A stretch of DNA of 64,000 nt from Clavibacter sp. A6099. Lineage in GTDB: Bacteria > Actinomycetota > Actinomycetes > Actinomycetales > Microbacteriaceae. A model generated the notes under the pieces. The model ran no database searches. It was not told the DNA's origin and worked only from the letters and a program-made list of their open reading frames with translations. The stretch covers positions 2,356,001 to 2,420,000 of the forward strand of contig NZ_CP083439.1 of NCBI RefSeq assembly GCF_021919125.1, written 5' to 3'. The translations under genes and the position numbers were made by a program. This document shows positions 30,766-48,046 of this stretch, piece by piece. Every line of letters begins with the position of its first letter. The first letter of the stretch is position 1.

Positions 30766-31775
30766 TGGCGGCGGCCGTCCAGACGATCCCCGTCCAGGGC
30801 GCCGTGGAGCTCGCGGTGCTCGAGCGGAGCGGCTTCGTGGAGTCGCGTCACATCGGCGCGGCCGTCGTGCTGTCGCCCGAGGGCGAGGTGCTGCGAGAGG
30901 TCGGCGACGCGACGACGCCCGTGTTCCCGCGCTCCAGCATGAAGCCGTTCCAGGCCCTCGCCGTGCTGGCGAGCGGGGCGGAGCTCACCGAGGAGGAGCA
31001 CGTGCTCGCCACGGCCAGCCACGCCGCGACCGCGCGTCACGTGGAGGTCGTGCGGGGGATCCTCGCCAAGGCCGGGCTCGACGAGTCCGCGCTGCGCTGC
31101 CCCGCCGACTGGCCGCTCGACCGGGCCGCGCGCGACGAGCTCGTGCGCGCCGGGATCCCCGCCTCCCCCGTCCACATGAACTGCTCCGGCAAGCACGCCG
31201 CGATGCTGCTCGCCTGCGTGACGAACGGGTGGTCGACCGAGGACTACCTGCACCCGGACCACCCCCTGCAGGTGCGGATCCGCGACGTGGTCGAGCGCTT
31301 CACGGGAGAGCGGATCGCCACGACGGGCGTCGACGGGTGCGGCGCACCCGTGCACGCGATGTCGCTGACGGCGCTCGCGCGCGGGATCCACCGCATTGCG
31401 ACATCCGCGCCCGGCTCGCCGTTCGCGCTGTACCGGCACGCGGCAGCGCTGACCGCTGCGGTGCGCGCCCACGGCTGGGCGATCGACGGCCCTGGCCGCG
31501 CGAACACCGTCGTGATCGAGCGGCTGGGCCTCTTCGCCAAGGGCGGGGCCGAGGGGATCATGATCATGACGGCCCCCGACGGCACGACGGTGGCCTCGAA
31601 GACGCTCGACGGCAGCCTCCGGGCGTCCACCATCGTGGCGCTCGAGCTCCTGGCCGAGGCGGGCGCGATCACGCGGGACGACGTGGAGCGCGTGCGCCCC
31701 GAGCTCGACCTCCAGGTGCTCGGCGGCGGGGTGCCGGTGGGCGAGATCCGGGTGTCGCCGACGCTCATCGGCTGA
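30765..31775 (+). CDS. L-asparaginase II-family protein
   Basis: 336 residues of the bacterial asparaginase-II family, distinct from the E. coli AnsA/AnsB fold. Family-typical segments are FPRSSMKPFQALAVL near residue 50, ATASHAATARHVEVV, HMNCSGKHAAML, GVDGCGAPVHAMSL, GPGRANTVVIE and KTLDGSLRAST. It should hydrolyse asparagine to aspartate and ammonia. The ATG overlaps the gabT stop (TGATG). The coupling suggests a joint role in amino-nitrogen use. The 3' end overlaps the convergent FtsK-type gene by 11 bases. Confidence 0.86.
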   Translation: MAAAVQTIPVQGAVELAVLERSGFVESRHIGAAVVLSPEGEVLREVGDATTPVFPRSSMKPFQALAVLASGAELTEEEHVLATASHAATARHVEVVRGILAKAGLDESALRCPADWPLDRAARDELVRAGIPASPVHMNCSGKHAAMLLACVTNGWSTEDYLHPDHPLQVRIRDVVERFTGERIATTGVDGCGAPVHAMSLTALARGIHRIATSAPGSPFALYRHAAALTAAVRAHGWAIDGPGRANTVVIERLGLFAKGGAEGIMIMTAPDGTTVASKTLDGSLRASTIVALELLAEAGAITRDDVERVRPELDLQVLGGGVPVGEIRVSPTLIG

Positions 31776-34700
31776 TCCCGGCGGGCTGCGCGCGTCGCGG
31801 CGGGGCGGCGGGGCGCGCTGCGGGCAGCGCAGCTTCCGCGGGCAGCACGGGCACCGCGGGCGCCGCCCCCTGCGCCGGCGCGTCGGGCTGCCCCGCCGTC
31901 GCCGGCGGCCACGAGCAGCGGCGCACGTCGCCGTCGGGGGCGACGAGCCAGGCGCGCCCGGCGATCGGGGCGAGCGGCGGCGGCACCGCGCGGACGCGGA
32001 GCAGCGTGCGGGCGTCCCGCGGGGTGCAACCCTCCAGCACGACGTCGCCGGCGCGGCGGATGTCCGCGAGGAGCGGACCGCGCATCAGCCAGGCGTCGGG
32101 ATCCCCCACCACGACCCGGGGACACGCCGCGCGGCCTCCGCCTCCGTGAACGCCGCGGCCGACGGCGGCCCGCCCCGAGATCCCGCTCCCCTCCGCTGCC
32201 GCACCGGGGAACGGCTGGTCCGCGGACCAGCCCGGCGGGATCCGGGCGGCCTCGATCGCGTCGACGCCCCGCTCGCGGAGTCGCGCGACCGCGGCGACGG
32301 GCGACGGCGTGACGAGCGCGTGGACGGCGTCACCCGAGAGGACCACGATGGGCGCGGGGTCCGCCTGCCCCGGCGCACGGGAGCCCTCCGCGTGCCGGGT
32401 GGACGCGCTCTCGACCTCGGGCGGCGTGGCCACCTGGATCCGCTCGCCGCGCCACTCCCCCGCTCCGGGCATCGCGCGGGCATCGAAGAGGCCGCTCTCG
32501 CCGCCCGCCAGGACGTGCTCCTGCCTGCTGGGGAGCGGGAGTAGCACGGGCGGTCCCGAGGCGGTCGCGACGCACTGGAGCGGCCCGCCCGCCCGCCGGC
32601 CGGCGACGGCGAGCGCCACCCCGGCGTGCGGCCCCTCGCGGACGATGGCGCCCAGCCCCTCGAGCAGGGCGGCCTGGTGCTCGGGTCCCAGGCGGGAGAC
32701 GGCGACGTCGAGGTCGTCGGCCAGCACGACGAGCGGATCCCACGGGCCGTGCGGGTCGCGGATGCGGGCGACGACGCCGGCGACCGCGTCCCAGCAGCCC
32801 TCCGCGTCCGCGGGCATGTGGATCACCTCGACGCCGGCCACGGCGGCGGACGCGGCGATGGTGCGCAGGCACGTGCTGCGGCCGGATCCCGGGCCGCCGA
32901 CGACGAGCAGGTGGCCGTCCGTCGCCGGGCACCACACGGCGGTCGCCCGCCGCTGCTCCGCGGGCAGGTCGACGAGGGCGAACGGGATGGCGGACGCGCC
33001 GGGTGCGGGGATCGCGGATCCGCGCCGGGAAAGGGGCGGCACCGCGTCGAGGTCGGCGAACGGGATGGACGCGGGCAGCGGATCCAGCCACGGCCGCCGC
33101 ACGAGGACCGGCGTCGCGCGCACGGCGGCGACGCGGGCGAGGTCGTCAGCCGTCGTGACGGCCACCTGGAACGGTCGCGTGGGCGCGCCGTGCGCCCCCA
33201 CGAGGCACCGGCCCGCGGGCGCGTCGGCGAGGCGCGCCGCCTCGCCGGTGCCGAGGAGCGCCCGGCTGTCGGCCTCGTTGTTGACGCGGAGCGAGAGGCG
33301 GAGGTCGCAGTTGGCGAGCACCGCGTCGCGCACGACGCCGGCCGGGCGCTGGGTGCAGAGCACGAGGTGCATGCCGAGCGAGCGGCCCCGGGCGGCGATG
33401 TCGGCGACGACCTCGTGCAGCCCGTACTGGTCGGCGAGGAGGGCGGCCAGCTCGTCGACGACGATGACGAGGCGCGGCAGCACGCCCGCCGCGGCGGGGT
33501 CGTCGACGTCGCGGGCGCCGGCCTCGCGGAGGACGCGCTCACGATGGCGGATCTCCGCGCGGAGGCTCTCGAGCGCGCGGCGCGCGCCCTGGCCGTCGAG
33601 GTCGGTGACCAGGCCGACGGCGTGCGGCAGGACGAGCAGCGGGTCGAACGCCGCGCCGCCCTTGAAGTCGACGAGCAGCACGGTGACCTCGTCGGGCGGG
33701 TGCGCCGCCGCGAGCGCCGCCATCCACGTGACGAGGAGCTCGCTCTTGCCGCTGCCCGTGGTGCCGGCGACGACCGCGTGCGGGCCGTCGGCGACGAGGT
33801 CGACCGACACGGGACCGTCGTGCCCGACGCCGATGACCGCCGCGAGCGTGCGCGGACGGCGGGGGTGCGGCAGGCGGTCCCGCTCCGTGACGGATCCGTC
33901 GCCCGCCGCGACCCCGTGAGCCGACGGGGCCGGGTCGCCCGCGGCCGGCTCGTCGACGTCCGGCGGCTCCGCGAAGTGCAGATCCGCGAACGGCACGCGC
34001 GACGGGAGGGGCGCCCGCGCCGCCGCGAGCCCGCGCCGCCGCGCGAGGTCGGCCAGCTCGTCCGCGAGGCGCTCCACCTCCGTGAGGGACACGAGGTCGG
34101 GATGCACCAGGCCGGTGCGGGTGAGGCGCGGAGCCGGGATGCCGTCGCCGTCGGGTGAGAGGACGGGCGCCGCGGGATCCGCGGAGGCGCCGGGGCCGAG
34201 GGCGGCCGGGGCGTCGGGCGCCGGGTCGGCCGCGAGGATCCGCGCCGTGCCGGGGCTCCGGACGTCGAGCACCGTGCGGCACGCGGCCGGGAGCGACTCG
34301 ACCCGCGGCGCCGCAGCGAGCACGACCTCCCGACCGCCGAGCGCGAGCCGGATCGCCCAGGCGCCCGGCTCGCCCGTCGCGGTGACCTCCGCGGCCGATC
34401 GGTCGGCGCCGGCCCGCTCCTCGCGGAGCCCGTCGGTCGCATGCGGGAGCCGCTCGAGCCAGTCCCACTCGGGCCCGGCCGGGCGGGACGCGATGCGCAG
34501 GTCGTCGGGCGGGAGGGCGTGCACGAGCTGGACGACGACGCCCCGGAGCACGGGCGCGACCAGGGCGGAGGCGCCCCGCACCCCGAGGCCGCCGGTGACG
34601 GAGACGAGGACGGGCCCGTCGGGGACCCAGCGGACGAGATCCGCCCACCGCGCGGGGTCGTGCGGGGAGGTGACGGAAGCCGAGCGCGCGCCGGCGGAGA

Positions 34701-35232
34701 CGCGACGGGCACTCCGCCGCAGGATGCGCAGGAGCGGACGGCGCAGCAGCGTGCCGCGCCCGTCGCGGGCGTCGGAGTCCGGCACCCGCGCGTCCGGGTC
34801 GCCCCGCCAGACCATGCCGCTCGGCACCTCGCCCGTGCCGAGCGCCATCGGGAGCGGGCCGGCACCGCCCGGATCCGCCCGCCAGAGGAGCGCGGGGTTG
34901 GCGCTGCCGTCGAGGATCTCGCGCGCGGACGGCGCCCGCGACCGGAGGGCGACGCGGACGGCAGCGATCCTCGCCCGCACCTCGGCGTGCAGGTGCGCGA
35001 CCGCGGCGCGGGACTCGCGCTCCGCGCGGCGGGCGGAGCGCCGGCCGGAGATGCGCTGGTCCGCGACGCCCGCGACCGCGACCACGGGCCCGAGCGCCGC
35101 GAACAGCAGCGCGTACGGCGAGCGCGTGACGGCCCAGACGGCGACGCTGACGACGAGGGGCGCCGCGACTCCGAGCACGGGGAACGGGGGCGGCGGCGCG
35201 GGAACGGGTGACGGGGGCGGGGAGATGTCCAC
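31765..35232 (-). CDS. EssC/EccC-like FtsK/SpoIIIE ATPase
   Basis: 1155 residues from GTG 35232 (GTG 35265 is also possible; neither has a clear ribosome site). Two membrane helices near the N-terminus (VLGVAAPLVVSVAVWAV and LLFAALGPVVAVAGVA) precede a basic stretch and a long middle part. The first ATPase domain has Walker A GTTGSGKSE near residue 490 and Walker B LVIVVDELAALL near 590, followed by the FtsK-like CTQRP motif. A second nucleotide site, GGPGSGRST near 780 with VVLADDLD, follows, then a degenerate C-terminal part. Two N-terminal helices plus tandem ATPase domains is the architecture of type VII secretion motors rather than chromosome-pumping FtsK. No WXG100 substrate or EccB/D/E gene is in the window. 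It closes the PFNA-like locus. Confidence 0.85.
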   Translation of the reverse strand: MDISPPPSPVPAPPPPFPVLGVAAPLVVSVAVWAVTRSPYALLFAALGPVVAVAGVADQRISGRRSARRAERESRAAVAHLHAEVRARIAAVRVALRSRAPSAREILDGSANPALLWRADPGGAGPLPMALGTGEVPSGMVWRGDPDARVPDSDARDGRGTLLRRPLLRILRRSARRVSAGARSASVTSPHDPARWADLVRWVPDGPVLVSVTGGLGVRGASALVAPVLRGVVVQLVHALPPDDLRIASRPAGPEWDWLERLPHATDGLREERAGADRSAAEVTATGEPGAWAIRLALGGREVVLAAAPRVESLPAACRTVLDVRSPGTARILAADPAPDAPAALGPGASADPAAPVLSPDGDGIPAPRLTRTGLVHPDLVSLTEVERLADELADLARRRGLAAARAPLPSRVPFADLHFAEPPDVDEPAAGDPAPSAHGVAAGDGSVTERDRLPHPRRPRTLAAVIGVGHDGPVSVDLVADGPHAVVAGTTGSGKSELLVTWMAALAAAHPPDEVTVLLVDFKGGAAFDPLLVLPHAVGLVTDLDGQGARRALESLRAEIRHRERVLREAGARDVDDPAAAGVLPRLVIVVDELAALLADQYGLHEVVADIAARGRSLGMHLVLCTQRPAGVVRDAVLANCDLRLSLRVNNEADSRALLGTGEAARLADAPAGRCLVGAHGAPTRPFQVAVTTADDLARVAAVRATPVLVRRPWLDPLPASIPFADLDAVPPLSRRGSAIPAPGASAIPFALVDLPAEQRRATAVWCPATDGHLLVVGGPGSGRSTCLRTIAASAAVAGVEVIHMPADAEGCWDAVAGVVARIRDPHGPWDPLVVLADDLDVAVSRLGPEHQAALLEGLGAIVREGPHAGVALAVAGRRAGGPLQCVATASGPPVLLPLPSRQEHVLAGGESGLFDARAMPGAGEWRGERIQVATPPEVESASTRHAEGSRAPGQADPAPIVVLSGDAVHALVTPSPVAAVARLRERGVDAIEAARIPPGWSADQPFPGAAAEGSGISGRAAVGRGVHGGGGRAACPRVVVGDPDAWLMRGPLLADIRRAGDVVLEGCTPRDARTLLRVRAVPPPLAPIAGRAWLVAPDGDVRRCSWPPATAGQPDAPAQGAAPAVPVLPAEAALPAARPAAPPRRAQPAGISR

Positions 35233-35322
35233 CGGGCGAGGACACCACGGACGTCGTGCCCCCACGGGGCAGCGCCCGCACCTCGTGGACGCCGCGCGCG
35301 ACGGGATCCTGGGGAGGAGCCG

Positions 35323-37869
35323 TCAGGGGCGCGGGCGGCGAGGCCGGGCACGCGCTCCCGAGGAGCGCGCGCGGCCGTCGCCATCGCCGCCCGCGGCGCG
35401 CCCGCGCCCGCGCCCGTGACGCAGCGACGCCAGCGACACCATCGCGCGGAGCCGCTGCCGCCGGGTCCGCCCCGCGTCCATGCGCGCCGCCAGCTCGTCG
35501 ACGCGGCGCCAGGAGGCGTCGGCGAGCGCATCCGGCACGTCGCCCGGCGCGAACGCCGACTCGTCGGCGACGTCTGCGAGCCCGCGCGCACCGCCCACGC
35601 CCACGCGCCGCGCCACCTCGCGCCGCGTGGCCGCCACGGGCGGCACGAGGCCGCGGTCGAGCGCGCCGTCGCGGAACTCATCCCACGCGCCGCCGACCCG
35701 GTCGCGCGCGGCGGCCGCCCCGCGACGTCGACGCCGCCGCGTGGCCTTCGCGCCCACCACGGCGAGGAACGGCGACGCCGCGAGCCCGAGCCCGAGCAGC
35801 GACCAGCCGGCCACGCGCACGGCGGCGAGCACGGCCTGGAGCGCGGGATCCGCCTCCGGCCGGTCGTCCCGGCTCGCGTCCGGGGGCGTGCGGTCCTCGG
35901 GCTCGGCCTGCTCCTCGACGGGCGGCGGCAGCACCGTCTGCGGGCGGGCGACCTCGGTGGGCTCGTCGGGCAGCGCGTCCGGCACGTCGCGGACGGGCGG
36001 GTTCGGATCCACCGCGACCCAGCCGGAGGACGCCGTGTCGACCTCGATCCAGGCGGTGACGTCGGATCCCCGGATGGGCACTGGCCCGCCGAGCGCCTCC
36101 CGCACGGCCGCCTCTCCGGGCGCGAAGCCCATCACGACGCGGACGGGGAAGCCGAGGTCGTCGGCCATGAGGGCGGCCGCGACCGCGTACTGCTCCGCGT
36201 CGCCGAGCATGGGGCGGGTGGTGAGGAGGTCGGCGATGCGCTCGGCCGAGTGGCCCGACCTGCTGAAGGGCGCGTCGCCGACGCCGTGGCTGACGTACCC
36301 GTCGGCGCGGAGGGCGGAGATCGCGGCGACGAGCTGCGCGCCGGGCGACGCCGAGGTGCCGGCGCCCGCGTCCGTGCCGCCCGCGGTCGCGCCGTCGGGT
36401 GCGGCGGTGGACGCCTCCACGCGCGCGGCGACCTCGTCGGGCACGCCCGTGGGCCGCGGGGCCACGGCGTCGCCCGGGCGCTCGTCGGCGAGCGCCTCCA
36501 GCGGCGGCGTCGACGCGACGACGGCCTCGATCTCGTACGCGTCGCCCGCGGTCAGCCCGCCGATCACGGCGCCGGTGGCGGTCGCGTCGTCGTAGTAGAA
36601 GGAGTCGGCGAGGCGTCCGCCGTCGTCGCCCGCGAACGCGATGCGCTCGAGGCGGCCCGCGCCCGGCAGCCACACGCCGCGGTAGGCGTCGACGACGACG
36701 TCGAGGGTGACGTCGTCGCCGGGGACGCCCGTCTGGTCGAGCCGGTACGGCACGCGTGCGAACGTGCCGGAGGCCTGGCCCGTGCGCGACGCGTCGACGC
36801 TGCCGCGCGCGCCGCCCGTGCCGTACACGACGCCGTCGTAGGTGTCGAGCGCGGCGAGGCGTACCCGGCCGCCGACGGGCAGGCCCGCGACCGTGAGCAG
36901 CGTCTCGTCGGCCGTCGGCGTCTTCCAGTAGGTGCGGAAGGACGAGAGCGGGCTGACCTGCTCGCGCGGGTCGAACGGCTGCTCGACCGTGGAGCGGAGG
37001 CCGGCGCGGGACGCCTCGGGCGGGGCGGTGCCCGTGGCGGCGACGCCGGCGGCCAGGGCGGCCGCGAGCACGACGACCGCGGAGACCCCGGCGCGCGTGC
37101 CCGAGCGTCGCCGGTCCGACGCGGACTCCACGGGGATCCCCGCCTGCCGGCCGAGGCGGCGGACCGCGCGGTGGCGTCGGCGCCAGCGGCAGCGCGCGAT
37201 CCAGAGCAGGGCCGTCGCGAGCCAGGCCAGCGCGACCGGGACGAGGAGGCCCGCGGCGTCGGGCGCGTCGGGGCCCTGGCTGCGGTCGGGGCCGAGGGCG
37301 GCCGCGGCGACGAGGATCACGAGGGAGGGGATCACCGCGAGCTCGGGCCGCCGGGAGCGCAGGGCCACGGAGACGCCGATCACCGATCCCAGCAGCACGA
37401 GCGCGAACGCGGGCACGAGGAGCGCCTGGTAGTCGCCGACCGGGAGAGCGATGGTCACGAGCCGCACGATGCCGAGCGACGCGCCCTCGACGAGCTCGCC
37501 GAGGCCCGCGAGCGTCGGGCGCCAGCCGTCGACCGCGCCGGAGGGCACCGCGAGCGGCACGCCGAGCGCGAGGAACGCCACGAGGATCGCGGACGCCACC
37601 ACCGCGCTCCCCCAGCGGAACCGGGCGCCCGCGACCGCGACGAGCGCGCCGACGACCAGCGTGATCCCCGCCATCCGCACGAACGACGCGTCGCGGTAGA
37701 CGGGCCAGAACGCGGCCGCGGCGAGGCCGGTGAGGAGGGCGATCGCGAGGACGGGGACGAGGGTGCGGCCGGGGTCGCGGGATCCGGCCGGGATCCGGGG
37801 GCGGGCGGCGGCGCGACCGGGAGCCGCGCGGCGGGCGACGCGGGCGCCGGCGGAACCCCGCGCGCTCAC
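35323..37869 (-). CDS. TgpA-like membrane transglutaminase fold, catalytic Cys and His replaced
   Basis: 848 residues from GTG 37869, which overlaps the DUF58 stop by 4 bases. Five to six N-terminal membrane helices (first VLAIALLTGLAAAAFW) are followed by an extracellular region. The transglutaminase core is clear: MLGDAEQYAVAAALMADDLGFPVRVVMGF, then VTAWIEVDT, then GWVAVDPNPP. The catalytic triad should be Cys-His-Asp. Here the Cys position is Ala558 (codon GCG, 36196-36198), the His position is Thr605, and only Asp621 remains. A last membrane helix (about 695-715) and a basic, Arg-rich cytoplasmic tail follow. It cannot act as a cysteine transamidase; a structural or binding role in the PFNA-like complex is likely. 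Confidence 0.88.
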   Translation of the reverse strand: MSARGSAGARVARRAAPGRAAARPRIPAGSRDPGRTLVPVLAIALLTGLAAAAFWPVYRDASFVRMAGITLVVGALVAVAGARFRWGSAVVASAILVAFLALGVPLAVPSGAVDGWRPTLAGLGELVEGASLGIVRLVTIALPVGDYQALLVPAFALVLLGSVIGVSVALRSRRPELAVIPSLVILVAAAALGPDRSQGPDAPDAAGLLVPVALAWLATALLWIARCRWRRRHRAVRRLGRQAGIPVESASDRRRSGTRAGVSAVVVLAAALAAGVAATGTAPPEASRAGLRSTVEQPFDPREQVSPLSSFRTYWKTPTADETLLTVAGLPVGGRVRLAALDTYDGVVYGTGGARGSVDASRTGQASGTFARVPYRLDQTGVPGDDVTLDVVVDAYRGVWLPGAGRLERIAFAGDDGGRLADSFYYDDATATGAVIGGLTAGDAYEIEAVVASTPPLEALADERPGDAVAPRPTGVPDEVAARVEASTAAPDGATAGGTDAGAGTSASPGAQLVAAISALRADGYVSHGVGDAPFSRSGHSAERIADLLTTRPMLGDAEQYAVAAALMADDLGFPVRVVMGFAPGEAAVREALGGPVPIRGSDVTAWIEVDTASSGWVAVDPNPPVRDVPDALPDEPTEVARPQTVLPPPVEEQAEPEDRTPPDASRDDRPEADPALQAVLAAVRVAGWSLLGLGLAASPFLAVVGAKATRRRRRRGAAAARDRVGGAWDEFRDGALDRGLVPPVAATRREVARRVGVGGARGLADVADESAFAPGDVPDALADASWRRVDELAARMDAGRTRRQRLRAMVSLASLRHGRGRGRAAGGDGDGRARSSGARARPRRPRP

Positions 37870-39326
37870 GTCGCGCTCCGCTGCAGGGCGCCGCGCAGGT
37901 CGTCGAGGTAGCCGATCGTGAGGACCGACAGGTCGCCGAGGCGGCGGAGGCCCGGCTCGACCTCGGGGTCGCAGACGACCGCGACCACCTGCACGCCGGG
38001 CGGGAAGCCGACGGCGGCGGCGCGGATCGCGGCGGGTGTCGCCCCGGTGCCGCACACGAGGAAGACGACGGACACGCCCGCGACCTCGTCCGCGGCCGCG
38101 CGGGCCAGCTCACCGAGCGACGCCGCCCGGTCGGAGGCGCCGATCTCGGCGAGGTCGTCGAGGAGGCGGTCGCGCGTGACGGTGGCGAGGCGGCGGAGGC
38201 GGGCGGACCGGGATCCGGGCGGGCCCTGGCGCGCGACGGTGCGGGCGAGCCCGGGCAGCGTGGGCGCGGTCGGGAGGCGGCGCGTGCGGCGGCCCGCCCG
38301 GTCGGCGCTCGCGACGACCTGGAGGGTGCGCGCGTCGACGATGGCGCGGGCGCCCAGGGATCCGACGACGCTCACGGCCAGCTCGAACTCGGCGTCGGCG
38401 GTGGATCCGGCGAGCGCGCCGGCCGCGGATCCGGCCGCGACCGTGGTGCCGCCCGCCGGGATCGCCGCCGCGTCCTCGACCGGGCCGGGTGCGCCGCCGC
38501 CGTAGTCGCCCGCGTGCAGCGACAGCGCGACCATGATGTGGCTCCGCCTGGTCTCCTCGAACCGCCGCACCATGTGCACGCCGGTCTTCGCGGTCGAGCG
38601 CCAGTGGATGTGCCGCACCGGGTCGCCGGGCACGTACTCGCGGAGCGACTGGAACGACACGTCGCTGTCGGTGAGGTCGCGCGTGGCGCGTCCCTCGAGG
38701 TCGCGGACGAAGCCCGTGCTCGTGCTGGGCATCGCGAGCGTGCGCGGGTGCACGAGCAGGCGGGTAGCGGCGGCCTCGGCGGACTCGCGGCGCACCAGCC
38801 CGATCGGGTCGCCGCGGACGATGCGCGCGGGGCCGAGCGCGATCACGCCGCGGCGCGAGGTGGGCACGACGAACACGTCCTCGTGCGAGTGGCCGTGCGC
38901 GAGGGAGGGCACGTGCACCTCGGCGAGACCGGATCCGACGGGCACCTCCACCGTGAGCCCCACGGCCCGGCGGCGCAGCGGGTTCCGCACGGCGACCGTC
39001 GCGGGCGCGCGCTCCCCCGCGACCACGCGGTCGCGAGGCAGGCGCAGCGACACCTCGACCCCGGAGGATCCGACGAGGTGCAGCAGCGCGATGACCCAGA
39101 GGGCGGCGGCGGTCCAGGCGACCGCGACCAGCTCGCGCCAGCCGAGCGCGTAGCCCAGGGCGCCCGCGACGACGGCTGCCAGCGCGACCACGCGGCCGAG
39201 CGGCGTGACGACACCGACGAGGCGCGCGATCGCGTGGCGCGGCGGGGCGGTTTCGGGTTCGAGCGGGGACGCGACGGCGGCGGGATCCGGGGCGGCGGCC
39301 GCGCCGCGCGTCCCGACCGCGCTCAT
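37866..39326 (-). CDS. DUF58 membrane protein
   Basis: 486 residues. Two N-terminal membrane helices (about 40-80) precede an outside beta domain and the DUF58 signature SFQSLREYVPGDPVRHIHWRSTAKTG near residue 225. A vWA-like C-terminal part with Ala-rich inserts follows. DUF58 proteins are regularly encoded next to MoxR ATPases and transglutaminase-like proteins and probably form a membrane complex with them; the molecular activity is unknown. The ATG overlaps the moxR stop, and the stop overlaps the transglutaminase-like start, so translation is coupled on both sides. Confidence 0.9.
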   Translation of the reverse strand: MSAVGTRGAAAAPDPAAVASPLEPETAPPRHAIARLVGVVTPLGRVVALAAVVAGALGYALGWRELVAVAWTAAALWVIALLHLVGSSGVEVSLRLPRDRVVAGERAPATVAVRNPLRRRAVGLTVEVPVGSGLAEVHVPSLAHGHSHEDVFVVPTSRRGVIALGPARIVRGDPIGLVRRESAEAAATRLLVHPRTLAMPSTSTGFVRDLEGRATRDLTDSDVSFQSLREYVPGDPVRHIHWRSTAKTGVHMVRRFEETRRSHIMVALSLHAGDYGGGAPGPVEDAAAIPAGGTTVAAGSAAGALAGSTADAEFELAVSVVGSLGARAIVDARTLQVVASADRAGRRTRRLPTAPTLPGLARTVARQGPPGSRSARLRRLATVTRDRLLDDLAEIGASDRAASLGELARAAADEVAGVSVVFLVCGTGATPAAIRAAAVGFPPGVQVVAVVCDPEVEPGLRRLGDLSVLTIGYLDDLRGALQRSAT

Positions 39327-40396
39327 CCGCCCGACCGCGCGCCGGCGGCGGAGGGCCCGGCGGCGGAGGGCCCGGCGGCGGAGGGCTCGGCGACGTGCGA
39401 CCCCGCGGCGGCCCGGGCGCCCGACGCCCCCGCGTGCCCGTCGCGCGGCGGCGCGGTCTCGATGAGGATCTGCGACAGCACGCTCGTGGGCGTCACGCCG
39501 TCGAACTCGGCCTCGGGATCCAGCAGCAGGCGGTGCGCGAGCACGGGCTCGGCGAGCGCCTTCACGTCGTCGGGCACCACGTAGTGCCGGCCGTCGGCGG
39601 CGGCCCAGGTGCGGGACGCGCGCACGAGCGCGAGGGCGCCGCGCACGCTCGCCCCCAGCCGCACCTCGGGCGCGGTGCGGGTCGCGTCGACGAGGCGCAC
39701 CACGTAGTCGGCCACCGCGGGATCCACGTGCACGGTCCCCGCGCGCTCCTGCAGCGCCCGCACGGCGGCGGCCGACGCGACGGGCGCGAGCGTCACGTCG
39801 TGCGCGCTGACGGAGGCACCCTGCAGGATCCGCAGCATCGACTCGTGGTCCGGGTACCCGATGGAGGTGCGCAGCAGGAACCGGTCGAGCTGCGCCTCGG
39901 GCAGCGCGTAGGTGCCGGCCTGCTCGATGGGGTTCTGGGTGGCGATGACCATGAACGGGTGGCCCACCTCGTACGGCGTGCCGTCGACCGTGACGCGGCC
40001 CTCCTCCATCACCTCGAGGAGCGCGGACTGCGTCTTCGGGCTCGCGCGGTTGATCTCGTCGGCCAGCACGATGCTCGCGAAGACCGGCCCGCGGTGGAAC
40101 TCGAACTCGCCCGTGCGCTGGTCGTAGACGCTGACGCCCGTGATGTCGCCGGGCAGCACGTCGGGGGTGAACTGCACGCGGCTGTGCGTGCCGTCGACGG
40201 TCTGCGCCATGGCGCGGGCGAGCGAGGTCTTGCCGGTGCCGGGCACGTCCTCGAGCAGCAGGTGGCCGCCCGTGACCATGGCCGTGAACGCGAGGCGCAC
40301 GACGTGGGACTTGCCCAGCAGCACCTGCTCCACGTTGCGCACGAGCCGCGCGAACTCGTCCTGGAAGGCGCGGGCCTCGTCGGCGGTCATCGTCAT
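39323..40396 (-). CDS. MoxR-family AAA+ ATPase
   Basis: 357 residues. Walker A EDVPGTGKTSLARAMA near residue 50, the MoxR pattern VQFTPDVLPGDITGVSVYD, Walker B SIVLADEINRASPKTQSALLEVMEE, sensor 1 ATQNPIEQAGTYALPEAQLDRF, and the AAA lid VRLGASVRG are all present. MoxR proteins act as chaperone-like ATPases that mature or remodel partner complexes, here presumably DUF58 and the giant FN3 protein. ATG 40396 has GAGAGG 9 bases upstream and is preferred; GTG 40462 would overlap the upstream gene by 8 bases but lacks a ribosome site. The C-terminal tail holds a PSAAG repeat encoded by a 15-bp tandem repeat. Confidence 0.92.
   Translation of the reverse strand: MTMTADEARAFQDEFARLVRNVEQVLLGKSHVVRLAFTAMVTGGHLLLEDVPGTGKTSLARAMAQTVDGTHSRVQFTPDVLPGDITGVSVYDQRTGEFEFHRGPVFASIVLADEINRASPKTQSALLEVMEEGRVTVDGTPYEVGHPFMVIATQNPIEQAGTYALPEAQLDRFLLRTSIGYPDHESMLRILQGASVSAHDVTLAPVASAAAVRALQERAGTVHVDPAVADYVVRLVDATRTAPEVRLGASVRGALALVRASRTWAAADGRHYVVPDDVKALAEPVLAHRLLLDPEAEFDGVTPTSVLSQILIETAPPRDGHAGASGARAAAGSHVAEPSAAGPSAAGPSAAGARSGG
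39344..39388. repeat. 15-bp tandem repeat in the moxR 3' end
   Basis: Three copies of GGCGGCGGAGGGCCC (39344-39358, 39359-39373, 39374-39388, the last with one change) encode the disordered PSAAG-type tail of the MoxR protein in frame. Confidence 0.85.
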
Positions 40397-40454
40397 GGGT
40401 TCGTGCCTCTCGGGTGCGGCCTCGGGTCCGGCGTCGGAGCCGCGGGAACGGCCG

Positions 40455-43400
40455 TCATCCACGGTGGGCGTACGTGTACAGCGTGCCCGAGTTCGCGGTG
40501 ACGCGCACCTCGAGGATCCGCTCGCCGCCGGCCGGGACCGTGCAGGACCCGGCAGCGCCCGAGGACGCGTCGGTCCACGCGCCCTGGCCGCCGCAGCGCC
40601 ACTCGCTGCGCGCGTACCCGCCGCCGTCGGCGACGCGCGCGCCGCGTCCGGCGGCCGGCGGCATCGAGGTCCACGAGAAGGTCGTGACGCCCGCGTCGTC
40701 GGTGGCGGACCGCACGTCGCCCGCGCGCGCGTCCACCGCGGTGCCGGCGGAGACCGGATCCGACCAGCCGCTCGAGCGCGGGCGCCCGTCGCCCGAGTCC
40801 TCGACGACGCGGACCTGGATCGTCGCGCCGACCCCGGTGCGCGGCAGCGTGAGGGCCTGGCCGACGCCGATGGGAACGCCGTCGCCCTGGCCGTCGACCC
40901 GGTACAGCAGCTGCGCGGACGCGGACGCGCTGCCCGGCCGGTAGCGCGCGTCGGCGAGCACCGCGCGGAAGACGCCGTCGCCCGGCCGGTCGGGGCTCGG
41001 CAGGTCGACGCGGACGACGGGCGTGGACGGCGCGGTGCGCGGGGTCAGCTGGCCGGCCTCGACGACCGTGCAGCCCTGGCTGTTGGCGGCGAGCACGGCG
41101 AACGCGACGGGCTGGTCGGTGGCGAGGCCGGTGAAGACGTGGCTGGTCGCGCCGCCCACCTCGACCGCGGGACCGTGCTCGGCCGACCACGGCGACACGC
41201 CCTCGGTGGGCACCGTGCAGCCGGGCGCGGATCCCGGGGCGTACGCGGCGACGAGGTAGCGGATCCCGTCGACGCCCTGGCCCTGGAACGCCGGCCACGA
41301 GACGGTGACGCGCGTCTCGTCGGCCGCGTCGGCGACCGCGGCGGGCGCGCCGGTGGCGGTCGGGGCGCCGCGCGGCGTGCCGGTCGCGGTGGCGGCGAGC
41401 CACGCGGTCCCGTCCTGCACCTGGGCGCTGTTGCGCGCGGCCACCGAGACCGCGACGGGCACCTCGGCGACGAGCGACGGATCGCGCACCTCGACGCTCG
41501 TGGCGTCGGAGGCGACCTGCCGCGTGAGGCCGCCCACCCCCACGACGTACTGCGTGACCGGGCTCGACGACGACGGCACGGCCGACGGCTGCCACGAGAG
41601 GCGCAGCCCGTCGACGAGCGGCTCGACCGCGAGGCCCGCGGGCGCGGCCGGGAGCACGTCCGACCACAGGCCCGAGATCGAGACGGGGTCCGAGGTGCCC
41701 ACGCCGTTCACCGCGGAGACCTCGACCTGCACCGGGTTCGCGGGCCCGTTGCCGGGGGTCGGCACGGTGCAGGTCGTCGACGGGCAGGTGACGGTCGCGG
41801 TCGCGGTGCCGCCGCGGAGGACGCGCAGCTGGTAGCCCGTGATGGCGGATCCGTTGAAGGCGCCCGGCTCGAACGCCACCGTCAGCGACCGGTCCGCGAA
41901 GCCGGAGGCGCGGAGGGCCGAGACCGGTCCCGGGCGGTCCTGCACGTGGATCACGACGGTGCCGAACGCGGCCCGCCCCGCGTCGCCCGTGGCGTCGCGC
42001 ACCTCGTACTGCACGCGCACGTCGCCGGGCTCGGCGTCGGCGGACGCGCTCACGGCGAGCGTCGCGCGGTCGGCCGACGGCGTGACGGTGACGCCCGCGG
42101 GGAGGCTCGCGCCGTCGGCACCGCGGATGGACGCGACCGTGAGCGGCGTGCCCGGGAAGGGGTTGCCGGCCTGGTCGTTGGCGAGCACGTCGACGGAGGT
42201 GGAGGATCCGCGCGTAACGGTGCCCTCGTCCGTCGCGGGCTGCGCGAGCGGGCGCGTCGACGGCACGACGCGGAGGTCCACTCGGCCCGCGCGCCCGGTC
42301 TGCGTGGCGTCGCGCACGCTCACCGGGAACGACGCGGCCTGCCCCGTCGCGACGCCCTCGTCGGCGGATATGCGGAGCGTGCCGCCGTCGACGGACGCGC
42401 GGAACCCGGCGGCGACGGATCCCTCCAGCGCGAAGGCGAGCTGCCCGCGGTCGTCCTGGTACGGGTAGGTGGTGAGGCGGCCGAGGTCGACGTCCTTGGA
42501 CTGACCCGGCTCGAGGTCGATGACCGCGCCCGTGAAGACGGGCGGCTGGTTCTCGGTGGGCGTCACGGTGATCGGCAGCACGAGCGCTGCCGTGCGCCCG
42601 CCCGCGCCCGACCCGTCGGTCACGGTGAAGGAGATCGCCGCCGGCCCGAAGTACCCCGGCTCGCTGCGGTACGCGATGGTGTCCTCGTCCACGAGCTCCA
42701 CGGGCCCGTCGGCGTGCGTCGCCGACAGCGAGTTCGGATCCGCGATGCGCACGGCCCGGCCGCCCGCCGCGACCACCTGCCGGTCGAGCTCGACCACGAG
42801 CCGCTCGCCGCTCGGCACGGTCGGCCGCGGCTCGCCCACGCGCAGCTGCGGCAGCGTGTCCTCGAAGCCCGGCACCCAGACGAAGGCCGTCGCGGAGACG
42901 GACGGGTCGTCGGGCTGCGCCACCGTGAACGGGACGATGCGGCGCTCGTCGCCGACCTCGACGCGGATCCGGCCGTCGCCCGTCACCAGCGCCACGTCCT
43001 CGTAGCCGGCACCGACGGCGAGCACGAGCGACGACGCGTCGCCCTCCGCGGAGAAGACGTTCCGCATGACGTCGACGTCGACGCTCGACCGGTCGAGCAC
43101 GTCGGAGAGCTGGAGCACCGTGTCGCGCGCGATCGGGCGGGTGGGCGGCGCGGCGGGATCCACGATCACGGTGAGGAACGCCTCGTCGCTGCCGCCGCGC
43201 GCGTTGCGCACGCCGTACACGAAGCCGTAGCGCCCGGCCGCGTCGGGCGCGACGACGCGCACGGTGTCGCCGTCGAGCCCCGCGACGAGGCCCTCGGCCT
43301 GCGGCTGCACCGAGACGAGCGAGAGCGCGCCGCCGTCGGGATCCGTGTCGTTCGCGAGCACCTGCACGCGGAGCACGCGGCCGGGCCGCACGGTCACGGT

Positions 43401-46400
43401 GTCGGCGGTGGCGACGGGGTTCCTTGCGCCCTCGACGCGCGGGCTGATTCCCACGCGGATCGTCCCGGTCGCCCGCGCGCCCAGCCCGTCGACGACGGCG
43501 TACGCGAACGCGTCCGTTCCCGTGGAGTAGTCGCCCGCCTGGTAGTCGATCCAGTCCGGGCCCACCTCGACGACCTGGCCCTTCTCGGGCCCGGTGTCCT
43601 GCCCGAGGAGCCGCACCGAGTCGCCGTCGGGGTCGATGCCGGTGAGCGGCACGGGGATCCGCACGGTCTCCCCCGCGAGCACTCGCGCCGTCAGCGGTCG
43701 CGGCACGGGCTCGGCGTTGGTCGCCACGTCGGCCTCGCGCACGGAGACGGTGAGCGTCGCGGTCGCCCACTGCCCGTCGGGCGCGACCGCGCGGTAGACG
43801 GCGGTGTAGTCGCCCGTGCGCTCGGGCGCGAGGTAGCGCAGGCGGTCCTCGCTCGCGAAGAGGAGGCCGGCGCCCTCGGGCAGCGGATCCACGAGCACGG
43901 GGTCGAGGCGCAGCCGGTCGCCGTCGGGCTGCTGGTCGTTGGCGAGCACGGGGATGTCCACGGCGTCGCCCACGCGCACGGCCACGCGGTCGTCGGTCGC
44001 GACGGGCGGCTGGCGCACGGCGGGCTCGGGCACCTCGATCACGGTGATCACGCCGGTCGCCTCGGCCACGCCGTTGCTCACGCGGTACTCCACGTCCACC
44101 GGACCGTCGAGCGGCCTGGTCAGGCTGATCCGCACGAGCCGCTGCCCGACGACCTCCGCGCGCACGCCCACCGCCTCGTCGGGCGCGACCGCGCCGGTGA
44201 TCACGAGCACCCCGCCCGCGGGATCGAAGTCGGTCTGGAGCACGTCCACGTCCTGCGCCTGGAGGGCGCGCACGAACACGGTGTGCGGCACCGTCACGGG
44301 CCGGCCGTCGGACGCGGGGGCGCCGCGCACCTCGACGCGCACGACGCCGGTCGCCGTCGTCCGCCCGTCGGTCACCGTGTACTCGAGCAGGTGCGTGCCC
44401 GCCTGGCCGCCCTCGAGGCGGAAGGTGCCGGCCTCGAGGTCGGGCGTGATCTGCAGGCCGGCCCGCGCGGGCACGGCCGCCAGCCGGATCGCGCCGCTCC
44501 CGCCGCGCGCGTGCGTCAGCGGCTCGACCGTGATCTCGCGCCCGATCGCCGCCTGCACGACGAAGCCCTCGGCGACGAGCGGCACGTCCCCGGCGCGGCG
44601 CACCGTGACGACCAGCTCGCCCGAGCCCTCCTCGCGCCCGTCGGACACCTGCAGCGCGACGGTCCGCGTGTCGCCTCCCGCCCCGGCGTCCGTGTAGACG
44701 ACGCGCCCCTCTGGCTTCCAGCTGACGGCGTCGGGCGCGGGGACGCTCGCGCGCGTGAGGTACATCGGATCCCCGTCGGGGTCGTACCAGCCGCCCAGCA
44801 CGTCGGTCTGCAGCCGGTCGCCCTCCGCGACCGTGCCGGTCGCGGGCCGCGCCTGCTCGGGCGGCGCGTTCTCGTCGGCCCCGCGCACGGCGACGCGGAC
44901 GTCGGCCGTCGCGGTGCCGCCGCGTCCGTCGCTCACGACGTAGGAGAACCGCACGGTGCCGGATGCGCCCGCGGCGAGCGCGAGCTGGAGGCCCTGGCCC
45001 TCGTCCACGATGTCGACCGCCCCGACCGCGGCGTCCACGGGCGTGACGGAGTCGATCACGAGCACGTCGCCGTTCGGGTCGTGGTCGTTGAGGAGCACGG
45101 GCAGCGCGGTCGTGCGGCCGGGGCGCGCGCCGAGGTCGTCGTCGACCGCGACGGGCGGCTGCTGCACGCGGTCGGTCTCGGGCGGGGTGTCCGCCGTGTT
45201 CTGCTCGACGACGGTGTCGGAGCGGTCCCGGTCGATGAGGTCGGCCCAGTTGTCGATGAGGCCCGCGTCGCGCTGCACGGCCCATGCGGTGCCGCCGCGC
45301 ATGTCGTTGAGCACGACGCGCGTGCCGTCGACGAGGAAGCGCAGGGCGGCCTGCTGCGGCATGGATCCGAGGTCGCCCGTGGCGCCCGCCGTCGTGCGCC
45401 TGGCGTCCCGGTCGCCGTCGCCCCCACCCGCGAGGACCGCGGGCGCGAGGCAGCGCTGCCAGCCGGATCCGTCGGCCCAGCCCGCGTACTCGCAGCCGGC
45501 GACGCGGACGGGACGCGCGGGGTCGCCGCGGACCGCGTCGCTCACGACGACCGGATCCCCGCCCGCGACCGGCACCTCGACCAGCCCGCCCGAGTGCGCG
45601 ACGAGCACGCCGCCGGCATCCGACGACGCGCGCTGGAGGGCGACGCGCGCGTCCGCGGCCACGGATCCGGCGAGGTCGACCGTCCGCCCGTCGACGAGGA
45701 GGGCGCGCGCGTCGGCGTCGTACAGCGCCCACCGGCCGTCGACGGACGTGAGCGCGAGGCGCTGGCCGGCGGGGCGGCCGGGATCCCCCGCCTGGACGGT
45801 CTCGCCCGCGACGGCCGCCGCGGGGTCGGCCGGTGTGTCTGCCGCGGCGTCCACGGGCGCGCCGACGGGCCCGACGTCGACCGTCTCCCGCACGGTGTCC
45901 TCGGTCGCGGCCTGGATGCGCGACAGCGTCCCCGTCGCGGCGGAGTACACGAGCAGCGTGCCGTCGTCGCCCATGGACGCGACGGCGTCGGCCCCGAGGA
46001 TGAGCGTGGGCGCGCTCGCGGCGTCGAACGCGGAGAGGCCCGCGACCGGCACGAGCCACAGCTGGCCCGTCGCCGGCACGAGGATCGCCGCGCGGGACCC
46101 CGCGAGCATGACCTCGGCGCCCGCCGGCAGCGGCGCCGTGTCGACGACCTGGCTCGTCGCGTCGTCGACCACGTCGAGGCGCGAGCTGCCGCGGTCGGCG
46201 AGCAGCACGGTGGATCCCGTCTGCAGCACGTCGATGTCCTCGCTGCGGGAGTCGACGACGCTGTCGAGCTCGAGCACGGCCGTGTTGGCGCGGCCGATCG
46301 CCTGCTGCGCGGAGTTGACGACCCACACGGATCCGTCGTCGAGGTCGACGCGCTGCGCCTGGTAGCCGTCGGAGACGAGGGCGAAGCCCGTGAGCAGCGC

Positions 46401-46469
46401 GAGCACGACGGCGCCGCCGGTGACGGTCGTCGCGGCCTGGCGGTGGCGGCGGATCCACTCGCGGATCAT
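40455..46469 (-). CDS. Giant membrane-anchored cadherin/Ig-like repeat protein with FN3 domains
   Basis: 2004 residues. A short basic start (IREWIRRHRQ) and one membrane helix (about 14-34) leave almost all of the protein outside. Residues 40-470 look like a beta-propeller or WD-like region with scattered TLLVYS/GQLWLVPV strands. About eleven cadherin/Ig-like repeats follow to about 1520, several with the hallmark V-L-A-N-D-x-D-P-D-G-D turn (VLLNDHDPNGD, VLANDQQPDGD, VLANDTDPDGG). About three FN3 domains (PVSALRASGFADRSLTV, LAVEPLVDGLRLSWQ, TVSWPAF) and a Cys-containing C-terminal domain end it. The Asp-rich turns suggest calcium binding. Its ATG overlaps the kinase stop (ATGA). It is the FN3 member of a PFNA-type cluster and may sense or contact the wall, the host or other cells. 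Confidence 0.9.
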   Translation of the reverse strand: MIREWIRRHRQAATTVTGGAVVLALLTGFALVSDGYQAQRVDLDDGSVWVVNSAQQAIGRANTAVLELDSVVDSRSEDIDVLQTGSTVLLADRGSSRLDVVDDATSQVVDTAPLPAGAEVMLAGSRAAILVPATGQLWLVPVAGLSAFDAASAPTLILGADAVASMGDDGTLLVYSAATGTLSRIQAATEDTVRETVDVGPVGAPVDAAADTPADPAAAVAGETVQAGDPGRPAGQRLALTSVDGRWALYDADARALLVDGRTVDLAGSVAADARVALQRASSDAGGVLVAHSGGLVEVPVAGGDPVVVSDAVRGDPARPVRVAGCEYAGWADGSGWQRCLAPAVLAGGGDGDRDARRTTAGATGDLGSMPQQAALRFLVDGTRVVLNDMRGGTAWAVQRDAGLIDNWADLIDRDRSDTVVEQNTADTPPETDRVQQPPVAVDDDLGARPGRTTALPVLLNDHDPNGDVLVIDSVTPVDAAVGAVDIVDEGQGLQLALAAGASGTVRFSYVVSDGRGGTATADVRVAVRGADENAPPEQARPATGTVAEGDRLQTDVLGGWYDPDGDPMYLTRASVPAPDAVSWKPEGRVVYTDAGAGGDTRTVALQVSDGREEGSGELVVTVRRAGDVPLVAEGFVVQAAIGREITVEPLTHARGGSGAIRLAAVPARAGLQITPDLEAGTFRLEGGQAGTHLLEYTVTDGRTTATGVVRVEVRGAPASDGRPVTVPHTVFVRALQAQDVDVLQTDFDPAGGVLVITGAVAPDEAVGVRAEVVGQRLVRISLTRPLDGPVDVEYRVSNGVAEATGVITVIEVPEPAVRQPPVATDDRVAVRVGDAVDIPVLANDQQPDGDRLRLDPVLVDPLPEGAGLLFASEDRLRYLAPERTGDYTAVYRAVAPDGQWATATLTVSVREADVATNAEPVPRPLTARVLAGETVRIPVPLTGIDPDGDSVRLLGQDTGPEKGQVVEVGPDWIDYQAGDYSTGTDAFAYAVVDGLGARATGTIRVGISPRVEGARNPVATADTVTVRPGRVLRVQVLANDTDPDGGALSLVSVQPQAEGLVAGLDGDTVRVVAPDAAGRYGFVYGVRNARGGSDEAFLTVIVDPAAPPTRPIARDTVLQLSDVLDRSSVDVDVMRNVFSAEGDASSLVLAVGAGYEDVALVTGDGRIRVEVGDERRIVPFTVAQPDDPSVSATAFVWVPGFEDTLPQLRVGEPRPTVPSGERLVVELDRQVVAAGGRAVRIADPNSLSATHADGPVELVDEDTIAYRSEPGYFGPAAISFTVTDGSGAGGRTAALVLPITVTPTENQPPVFTGAVIDLEPGQSKDVDLGRLTTYPYQDDRGQLAFALEGSVAAGFRASVDGGTLRISADEGVATGQAASFPVSVRDATQTGRAGRVDLRVVPSTRPLAQPATDEGTVTRGSSTSVDVLANDQAGNPFPGTPLTVASIRGADGASLPAGVTVTPSADRATLAVSASADAEPGDVRVQYEVRDATGDAGRAAFGTVVIHVQDRPGPVSALRASGFADRSLTVAFEPGAFNGSAITGYQLRVLRGGTATATVTCPSTTCTVPTPGNGPANPVQVEVSAVNGVGTSDPVSISGLWSDVLPAAPAGLAVEPLVDGLRLSWQPSAVPSSSSPVTQYVVGVGGLTRQVASDATSVEVRDPSLVAEVPVAVSVAARNSAQVQDGTAWLAATATGTPRGAPTATGAPAAVADAADETRVTVSWPAFQGQGVDGIRYLVAAYAPGSAPGCTVPTEGVSPWSAEHGPAVEVGGATSHVFTGLATDQPVAFAVLAANSQGCTVVEAGQLTPRTAPSTPVVRVDLPSPDRPGDGVFRAVLADARYRPGSASASAQLLYRVDGQGDGVPIGVGQALTLPRTGVGATIQVRVVEDSGDGRPRSSGWSDPVSAGTAVDARAGDVRSATDDAGVTTFSWTSMPPAAGRGARVADGGGYARSEWRCGGQGAWTDASSGAAGSCTVPAGGERILEVRVTANSGTLYTYAHRG

Positions 46470-48046
46470 CGCGGGAGCTCCGCGCACTTCTCGGTCGATG
46501 CGTCCCCGGCGATGCCGTCGCGCGTGACGGTGACGCGGATGCAGGCGCGGCCGTCCGCTCCGGCACCCGCGGTGCCGCCCGATCCGGACGTCACCCGGAA
46601 GGTCGTGTCGCGCTGGGTGCTCGGCAGCCCGCCATCGCGCACCACCTGGTACGCGTCGTCGGCGCCGAGGCCGGGGTCGCTCCAGGAGAACAGGACGCCG
46701 TCGGCGGCGGCGGACGCCTGGATCTCGCCCACCACCGGGATGTCGCGCGTCGCGGTGCCGCCGCCCGACCCGCCGAGCAGCACGCCCACGCCCACGCTCG
46801 CGGCGATCGCGCCGGCGGCGGCCGCCGCGAACGCCACGCGGTGCCGTGCGAGGAACGCGCGCCGGCCGGCGACGGCGGGCCGGGCCGGGGCGGAGAGGCC
46901 GACGGGCCCGGAACCGGACCGGCCGAGGGAGGTGGACGCGGATCCCGCCCGCACCTGATCGGACGCGGTCGCCGGGGAGCCGGGACGCGCCGCGCCCGCC
47001 GTCTGCCGCGCCACCGCGGACGTCGCGGGTGCCGCCTTCCGCCGCGCGCGCCGGACGCCCGCCGCGCCGCGCGCGCCGCCCGGCCCGGTCGTCCCCGGAT
47101 CCACCTGCGCGATGCCGCGCACGCGCGTCGGGTCGTCGTCCTCGTCGACGCCGGCCGCCACGGCCGACGCCCACTCCTCGCTCGCGACCTCGAGCGGCGT
47201 CTGCGCGAGCCGCAGCTCCGCCTCCACCGCCTGCAGCTCGCGCACGAACGCGAGCGCCGACTCCGGCCGGGCGTCCGGCTGCCGCGACATCGCGCGGCGC
47301 AGCACCAGCTCGAGCCGCTCGGGCACGTCGGCGCGCCCGGTCGGCAGGGGCCGCGCCCGCTGGATCCGCGCCACGAGGTCCGCGGGCGCGTTCTGCCCGC
47401 CCGGCACCTCGAAGGGGCTGCGGCCCGCGAGCAGCGAGTACACGGTCGCGGCGAGCGACCACACCTCGCTCCGCACGGTGCCCGGGCTCTCGTCGGCGAG
47501 CACCTCGGGCGCCGACCACGGGATCGACAGGCCCACGGCGTCGGTCGCGGCGGCGTCCTCGAGCGTCGAGGCGATGCCGAAGTCGCTGAGCACGGGGTGC
47601 CCGAACGCGGTCGTGAGGATGTTCGCCGGCTTGATGTCGCGGTGCAGCACGCCCGCGCGGTGGGCGGTCTCCACGGCGCTCGCGATGCGGATCCCCACGC
47701 GCAGCACCTCCGCGACGCCGAGCGGCTCGCGGCGGTACCGGTCGCTGAGGCTCGACGAGCACAGCTCCATCACGAGGTACGGGCGGCCGTCGGCGGCGAC
47801 GGACGCCTGGTGCACGGTGAGCACCGACGGGTGCGCGCTCAGCTGCGCCATGAGGTCGGCCTCGGCGCGGAACATGGCGCGGAGTCGCTCGGTCACGATC
47901 TCCGCGAGCATCACCTTCACGGCGACCTGGCGGCGCGGCATGTCCTGCTCGTAGAGGAACACGTCGGCGAAGCCGCCGGAACCGAGGACCGTCACGTAGG
48001 TGAACCCCGGCAGCACCGGCGGGGCGGACGGCAGGCGTCTGGCCAT
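46466..48046 (-). CDS. Membrane Ser/Thr protein kinase of PFNA-like cluster (Pkb2-like)
   Basis: 526 residues. The kinase domain (about 15-280) has VLGSGGFADVFLYEQ, VAVKVM, HRDIKPANIL, SDFGIAS and WSAPEVL, so it should be active. A long Ala/Arg-rich linker leads to one membrane helix near residue 410 (AFAAAAAGAIAASVGVGVLL). An outside domain of about 95 residues with FN3-like strands (GVLFSWSDPGLGADDAYQVV) and two Cys ends the protein. It is the first gene of a minus-strand locus and overlaps the giant FN3 gene by 4 bases. In bifidobacteria the corresponding kinase phosphorylates neighbouring products; that role here is inferred. Confidence 0.91.
   Translation of the reverse strand: MARRLPSAPPVLPGFTYVTVLGSGGFADVFLYEQDMPRRQVAVKVMLAEIVTERLRAMFRAEADLMAQLSAHPSVLTVHQASVAADGRPYLVMELCSSSLSDRYRREPLGVAEVLRVGIRIASAVETAHRAGVLHRDIKPANILTTAFGHPVLSDFGIASTLEDAAATDAVGLSIPWSAPEVLADESPGTVRSEVWSLAATVYSLLAGRSPFEVPGGQNAPADLVARIQRARPLPTGRADVPERLELVLRRAMSRQPDARPESALAFVRELQAVEAELRLAQTPLEVASEEWASAVAAGVDEDDDPTRVRGIAQVDPGTTGPGGARGAAGVRRARRKAAPATSAVARQTAGAARPGSPATASDQVRAGSASTSLGRSGSGPVGLSAPARPAVAGRRAFLARHRVAFAAAAAGAIAASVGVGVLLGGSGGGTATRDIPVVGEIQASAAADGVLFSWSDPGLGADDAYQVVRDGGLPSTQRDTTFRVTSGSGGTAGAGADGRACIRVTVTRDGIAGDASTEKCAELPR

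Follow-up and report, generated by a model that had tools for sequence, protein, structure and literature searches.

A PFNA-type gene cassette and a short EccC/EssC-like ATPase form a conserved envelope locus in Clavibacter and other Microbacteriaceae

A 64,000-nucleotide stretch of Clavibacter sp. A6099 (the window; positions 2,356,001 to 2,420,000 of contig NZ_CP083439.1, or C1:2356001-2420000 in a 3.33-Mb genome of two contigs) carries a run of six minus-strand genes for a membrane Ser/Thr kinase, a giant FN3-type protein, a MoxR-family ATPase, a DUF58 protein, a transglutaminase-like protein (TGM), and a membrane ATPase resembling the EccC and EssC motors of type VII secretion (Table 1). 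This locus is real, conserved, and under-described. All six open reading frames (ORFs) proposed in an initial annotation were found there, and the first five, here called the cassette, are the genes of the PFNA cluster of bifidobacteria in the same order, as that cluster is described in PMC8430577. The three 4-base stop/start overlaps also noted initially lie at the kinase/FN3 (ATGA), MoxR/DUF58 (ATGA), and DUF58/TGM (GTGA) junctions, and FN3 and MoxR overlap by 8 bases, provided that MoxR begins at its first GTG. The 90-base spacing given for the gap between TGM and the sixth gene holds if the ATPase starts at GTG 35232 and falls to 57 bases if it starts at GTG 35265.

Table 1. Genes of the six-gene locus, with positions in the window and supporting matches
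Feature	Length (aa)	Position	Strand	Evidence
Six-gene locus		31765-48046	(-)	ORF calls: kinase, FN3, MoxR, DUF58, TGM, ATPase
Membrane Ser/Thr kinase	526	46466..48046	(-)	Pkinase 4.9e-37; HRDIKPAN and SDFG motifs
FN3-type giant envelope protein	2004	40455..46469	(-)	Big_9/cadherin-like repeats, C-terminal fn3 domains
MoxR-family AAA+ ATPase	379 (from first GTG)	39323..40462	(-)	AAA_3 5.9e-62, AAA_lid_2; PGxGKT and DExNR motifs
DUF58 membrane protein	486	37866..39326	(-)	DUF58 9.5e-9; hydrophobic stretches near 36-94
TGM, polytopic membrane protein	848	35323..37869	(-)	Transglut_core 1.9e-10, TgpA_N 2.2e-8; GTG start overlaps DUF58 stop
EccC/EssC-like membrane ATPase, short form without FHA domain	1166	31765..35265	(-)	FtsK_SpoIIIE; alternative GTG start 35232

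To place the locus in its family, 100 Microbacteriaceae genomes at least 90% complete were drawn evenly from 78 genera, and the short form of the ATPase, called at E < 1e-70, was present in 59 of them, the source genome included. Stretches of 20 kb were taken at the other 58 short ATPases, and one of these, on a 6.6-kb contig, was uninformative. Among the 57 informative relatives, 38 had the order FN3-MoxR-DUF58-TGM-ATPase on a single strand, with 60 to 4301 bases (median, 918) between TGM and the ATPase. The kinase was seen in 36 of these 38 linked loci, the others being cut by the end of the stretch. Because 38 of 57 relatives keep the ATPase behind the cassette in the same order and on the same strand, the six-gene grouping is real and is a conserved unit, as first proposed. 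Separation of the ATPase from its five companions is not the prevailing state in related genomes, having been found in only 19 of the 57.

Within the genus, all six genes were present in all three Clavibacter genomes of the family sample, and the closest relatives of the FN3 protein were Clavibacter records with 94, 93, and 90% identity in the best segment. In one draft genome, Clavibacter michiganensis CASJ009 (L092), the TGM and ATPase profiles matched in several pieces, and the frames look interrupted.

A second view came from named GTDB records scanned with the FN3 alignment and was restricted to 80 loci, the best 80 of 390. By our own profiles, 47 of the 80 loci contained eight genes, namely, those for a PP2C phosphatase, kinase, FN3, MoxR, DUF58, TGM, an FHA-domain protein, and the ATPase. 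The short ATPase followed TGM in 48 of the 71 loci long enough to judge; of these 48, 44 had the PP2C gene and 44 had an FHA gene with a zinc ribbon (> 100 bits).

The Clavibacter locus is bounded upstream by a citrate synthase gene on the same strand and downstream by a convergent L-asparaginase II ORF on the opposite strand, which overlaps the ATPase stop by 11 bases. With these neighbors at its edges, there is therefore no codirectional gene close behind the ATPase. A simple scan of positions 31500-48300 returned 0 promoter-like and 0 terminator-like sites, a result that says little about the transcript because the DNA is 75-81% GC.

Hydropathy and an AlphaFold model agree on two N-terminal transmembrane (TM) helices in the sixth protein, followed by tandem ATPase domains, and the two-helix, tandem-ATPase layout ascribed to it at the outset was borne out by domain, sequence, and structure matches. 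Its best match was EccC over 604 residues, spanning several ATPase domains. An FtsK paralogue that moves DNA, rather than a motor for protein secretion, would be the obvious alternative, but the matches to EccC (7.6e-48) and YukB/EssC (3.6e-35) chains were stronger than those to FtsK chains (6.3e-18), the protein has the helix pair and a stalk rather than the N terminus of FtsK, and the genome has a separate FtsK-like gene that is 36% identical to the ATPase over the first ATPase domain (D1) only. We consider a role as a DNA translocase hardly credible. The Walker A lysine of D1 was conserved in 37 of 37 aligned short ATPases and that of the second domain (D2) in 18 of 37; judged by these residues, the first domain is active-looking, and secretion by the short form is a putative activity.

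A quick tree built from 79 first-domain sequences grouped the 59 short ATPases in one clade (SH-aLRT 99) that included the Clavibacter genus and left the long forms of family f1 outside. The linked state was widespread across the short clade and the separate state was scattered; "linked" took 12 changes on this tree and "alone" took 10, the starred branches forcing only one. Repeated separation of the ATPase from the cassette is suggested, and linkage in the family is read, with modest support, as old and the separations as later.

Neither a PP2C nor an FHA gene was detected in the 64-kb window by our own profiles. The PFNA feature of prpC and fha following the core genes, which is optional in the published definition, is absent at this locus. 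A PP2C ortholog was located at C1:1282380, 1.1 Mb from the locus, with up to 61% identity to the PP2Cs of eight-gene loci. The same ortholog was found in both other genomes of the genus that were searched (98 and 96% identity), making three of three in all. Beside it (C1:1281256-1283216), a gene in 4-base overlap with the PP2C gene encodes a protein of 375 aa whose C-terminal FHA domain is weak, at 20.9 bits against a cut-off of 20.7. The genome has four FHA matches, comprising this protein, a 216-aa ORF of the GarA/OdhI type, and two near 24 kb beside another PP2C match. A CxxC zinc ribbon was present in neither of the two FHA ORFs read, those of 216 and 375 aa.

Separation from the cassette does not usually part the ATPase from the phosphatase. 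In 16 of the 19 loci with a separate ATPase, a PP2C gene lies 89-1955 bases ahead of it on its own strand. In Okibacterium, the kinase-to-TGM part (L102) lies about 230 kb from a PP2C gene beside the ATPase (G002), in what we infer to be the same genome. At E < 1e-60, PP2C was present in 9 of 10 genomes where the ATPase stands apart versus 2 of 12 that lack both the ATPase and an FN3 match (Fisher p 0.002), and in 12 of 13 when three Clavibacter genomes, one of them the query source, were added (p 0.0002); the threshold was set after the list had been viewed, and these values are uncorrected for kinship. At another locus (L190:12204-13904), a zinc ribbon, an RDD membrane domain, and an FHA domain are fused in what may be a membrane-bound zinc-ribbon FHA protein.

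Hydropathy places one TM helix of the kinase near residues 406-424, leaving about 100 extracytoplasmic residues, and this C-terminal piece had no Pfam match. Another Ser/Thr kinase, of 449 aa (Pkinase, 6.8e-46), is encoded on the plus strand at 24492-25841 of the window, about 20 kb from the locus. From its N terminus, the FN3 protein has a short tail, one TM helix, a predicted beta-propeller (approximately residues 43-412), the repeats, and the fn3 domains; fn3 (PF00041) reached 1.6e-11 when the C-terminal 504 residues were scanned alone. The structural matches listed for the N-terminal model of TM helix and propeller were WD40, BamB, and cd1 propellers. A profile search against PDB sequences gave weak matches for this region, the best being an S-layer YVTN propeller (0.017), with an EssC fragment at 0.28. 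Kinship of the FN3 N terminus with EccB was considered and rejected, as the model is a propeller and EccB was absent from the match lists, an absence that is not in itself an exclusion. The pattern DxSxS, taken as the canonical motif of the DUF58 metal site, occurred in none of 134 distinct DUF58 sequences, a count from which we draw nothing because no control family was included.

Outside the Microbacteriaceae, the cassette is often accompanied by a different form of the motor. Matches to the FN3-propeller profile were found in 12 families of the order (81 of 159 genomes), and surroundings were taken for 14 genomes from ten other families, one of which (G203) ended at TGM and was uninformative. 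A long EssC-like ATPase was near the cassette in 7 of the 13 informative genomes and in 7 of the 10 other families (f3, f5, f9, f10, f12, f17, and f19, the last with a divergent ATPase). PP2C, FHA, and kinase genes stood alongside it in f3, f5, f9, f10, f12, and f17, with the FHA genes of f3 lying beyond the ATPase. No ATPase was detected near the cassette in 4 of 4 informative genomes of family f4, in f13, or in f6, where the FN3 gene alone was found. Family f4 is probably the Bifidobacteriaceae, an assignment for which gene order is among the grounds.

The initial annotation had described the locus as a PFNA cluster extended by an ATPase. This description does not fit the wider sample, in which 7 of 10 other families have a long EssC-like ATPase close to the cassette, and the Microbacteriaceae locus usually adds PP2C and a zinc-ribbon FHA gene. 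Because of the long ATPases in those seven families, "extended PFNA" is probably backwards, and bifidobacterial PFNA may be a reduced part of a broader secretion system under kinase control.

By our own profile, WXG100-like genes lay near the long ATPase in f5, f9, f10, f12, and f17; of eight such stretches compared with Pfam, three (f5 and f12) were over the cut-off, four (f9, f10, and f17) were under it, and one was unmatched. Long ATPases were also seen in 11 Microbacteriaceae loci, in which linkage is a product of selection, because the loci were chosen for close FN3 and long-ATPase matches. At least 6 of the 11 (L174, L176, L180, L181, L188, and L190) had WXG100 genes over the Pfam cut-off, and L174 also encodes a protein with a Pfam T7SS_signal domain and an ATPase with a fused FHA domain. 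FHA-type matches were seen in four long ATPases. Pfam scans of 20 neighbor proteins from long loci returned none of EccB, EccD, EccE, mycosin, EsaA, EssA, EssB, or EsaB; no genome search was aimed at these components. Several long-ATPase loci have a protein of about 240-300 aa after the kinase (e.g., L175:2351-3211), one member of which had no Pfam match. Two PFNA-type cassettes lie in tandem on one strand in L200 (G030:C12:270000-289999).

The fifth gene has the TgpA_N and Transglut_core domains behind its transglutaminase-like label, but the protein appears catalytically dead. In a weak match to TgpA (6g49; 0.0026), the catalytic Cys corresponds to A558 and the His to T605, with the Asp retained as D621. 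Residues were counted in the 130 distinct relatives that reached 250 bits or more with the TGM profile, lower-scoring rows having been dropped, and 129 of these had a residue at the Cys column. None of the 129 was Cys (A 51, Q 28, G 20, D 13, E 10, S 7), and His and Asp were present in 7 and 107 of 128. Five loci of family f4 read GDSEQYA at the site, without the His and with Y or H replacing the Asp. Because Cys is absent throughout, His is mostly missing, and the f4 loci are no different, TGM looks like a pseudoenzyme across the sample, including the probably bifidobacterial family f4. Enzyme assays of the cluster's "transglutaminase" should take account of the absent cysteine.

Taken together, the Clavibacter locus is probably a compact and in part dispersed version of an envelope system of actinobacteria, in which a kinase-PP2C-FHA circuit and a MoxR/DUF58 chaperone pair would serve an EccC/EssC-like motor and a giant, membrane-anchored propeller/Ig/FN3 protein. 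In such a system, the kinase, with its cytoplasmic kinase domain, single TM helix, and outer domain, would act with PP2C to set the phosphorylation of FHA ligands, and its target could be an FHA ligand, MoxR, or both. The FHA domain, fused to EssC in the long forms, would couple phosphorylation state to the motor, while MoxR with DUF58 would assemble or remodel a complex that TGM and the FN3 giant form in the membrane. The ATPase could power the movement of protein substrates, or the assembly of the giant surface protein, across the membrane, with WXG100-like proteins as the likely cargo in full versions. Through this locus, a switch made of kinase, phosphatase, and FHA protein becomes testable for a type VII-like system.

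Several observations weigh against this proposal. The ATPase scored far under the NCBIfam EssC/EccC cut-offs (238.4 versus 778.4, 209.8 versus 509.15, and 150.2 versus 346.55 bits); four long relatives were likewise under the EssC cut-off, at 517-534 bits. Within the searches described above, no pore partner was identified. No WXG100 gene was found in the window by our own profile or within 300 kb of the locus, and the only one in a Pfam search of the genome (C1:2715007-2715261, or L194:8999-9289; PF06013, 70.9 bits) lies 327 kb off, directly 3' of a HAMP histidine kinase gene. All 69 family genomes searched had one or more WXG100 matches, whether or not they had the ATPase, so that WXG100 is no marker of the system; with the sole copy so distant and beside a histidine kinase, WXG100 was rejected as cargo of this locus. 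In genome G025, a long ATPase and a WXG100 gene share a stretch without the cassette (L192). Linkage has its gaps as well: besides the 19 separate ATPases, 3 of whose genomes had no FN3-propeller match, 23 of the 71 informative named loci, including Curtobacterium, Frigoribacterium, and Herbiconiux records, showed a cassette but no short ATPase over a span of at least 4 kb past TGM, and an FN3-propeller protein was present in 29 of the 41 family genomes lacking the short ATPase. On these last two counts, the cassette needs no such ATPase nearby.

The gaps in linkage, together with the cassettes that lack an ATPase in f4, f13, and f6 and the FN3 adhesion and cytokine-binding work reported in PMC8430577, speak for a rival reading, two separate functions in a shared, conserved neighborhood, the cassette being an adhesion or sensing device and the ATPase some other envelope pump. 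However, order and strand were constant in 38 of 38 linked loci, a separate ATPase still adjoins a PP2C gene in 16 of 19 loci, and a second, long ATPase recurs near the cassette in 7 of 10 other families, and we judge this explanation unlikely. Less likely still is that the locus is a degenerate relic of a type VII-like island that no longer secretes and is kept for kinase signaling or maintenance of FN3 in the wall. The local loss of PP2C and zinc-ribbon FHA, the absence of WXG100 from the locus, the short, fast-evolving ATPase with its D2 lysine in 18 of 37, and the interrupted matches in the CASJ009 draft would suit a relic, but the frames are long and open, the D1 Walker A is invariant, and both the six genes and the PP2C in trans are retained in all three genus genomes examined.

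A broader and more tentative version of our proposal is that PFNA and its relatives supply the envelope and control components of a separate actinobacterial class of type VII-like export machine, about half of the whole. The giant, the pseudo-transglutaminase, and DUF58 would form the extracytoplasmic assembly, loaded by MoxR and switched by kinase, phosphatase, and FHA; the motor would be long and FHA-fused in the full form, short and partnered by a separate FHA protein in Microbacteriaceae, and lost in bifidobacteria. We see this as conceivable, short of probable. If true, the bifidobacterial "immune communication" operon would be a motor-less descendant.

Among known systems, EccC of ESX and EssC/YukB of the T7SSb (type VIIb) systems share with the sixth protein the TM pair, the stalk, tandem FtsK/SpoIIIE-type domains, and an active-looking first domain. 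They differ from it in that the locus ATPase is short, lacks a fused FHA domain, falls under the NCBIfam cut-offs, has no adjacent WXG100 gene, and has PFNA companions. In type VI secretion, the threonine phosphorylation pathway consists of PpkA, PppA, and Fha1. There, too, a kinase, a PP2C, and an FHA protein accompany a secretion machine, a functional analogy only, as the machines are unrelated. A 15-ORF type VII/WXG100 cluster in Bifidobacterium choerinum AGR2158 and B. dentium Bd1 is described in PMC4965825; it resembles the present case as a type VII-like cluster in the same bacterial order.

A close counterpart is PFNA itself. Searches by term found no mention of an FtsK/EssC-like gene in the PFNA papers searched, passages of PMC3482391 and PMC7159879 held no description of such a locus, and no open-licence PubMed Central paper was found that names both PFNA and type VII secretion, a link that may be known elsewhere. 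In PMC8430577, the Bifidobacterium cluster reads pkb2-fn3-aaa-atp-duf58-tgm, with prpC, a hypothetical gene, and fha in some species; Pkb2 phosphorylates MoxR of its own cluster, and eight PFNA genes are cotranscribed in B. longum GT15. The Clavibacter locus has the same five core genes in the same order, with the kinase first and a large fn3-bearing protein, and PP2C and FHA are part of both sets. It differs in its added EccC/EssC-like ATPase, in having PP2C and FHA elsewhere in the genome, and in a giant of about 2000 aa with a predicted propeller. In this way, a gene cluster studied for host interaction in gut bifidobacteria is tied to a secretion motor present in relatives from soil, plants, and water.

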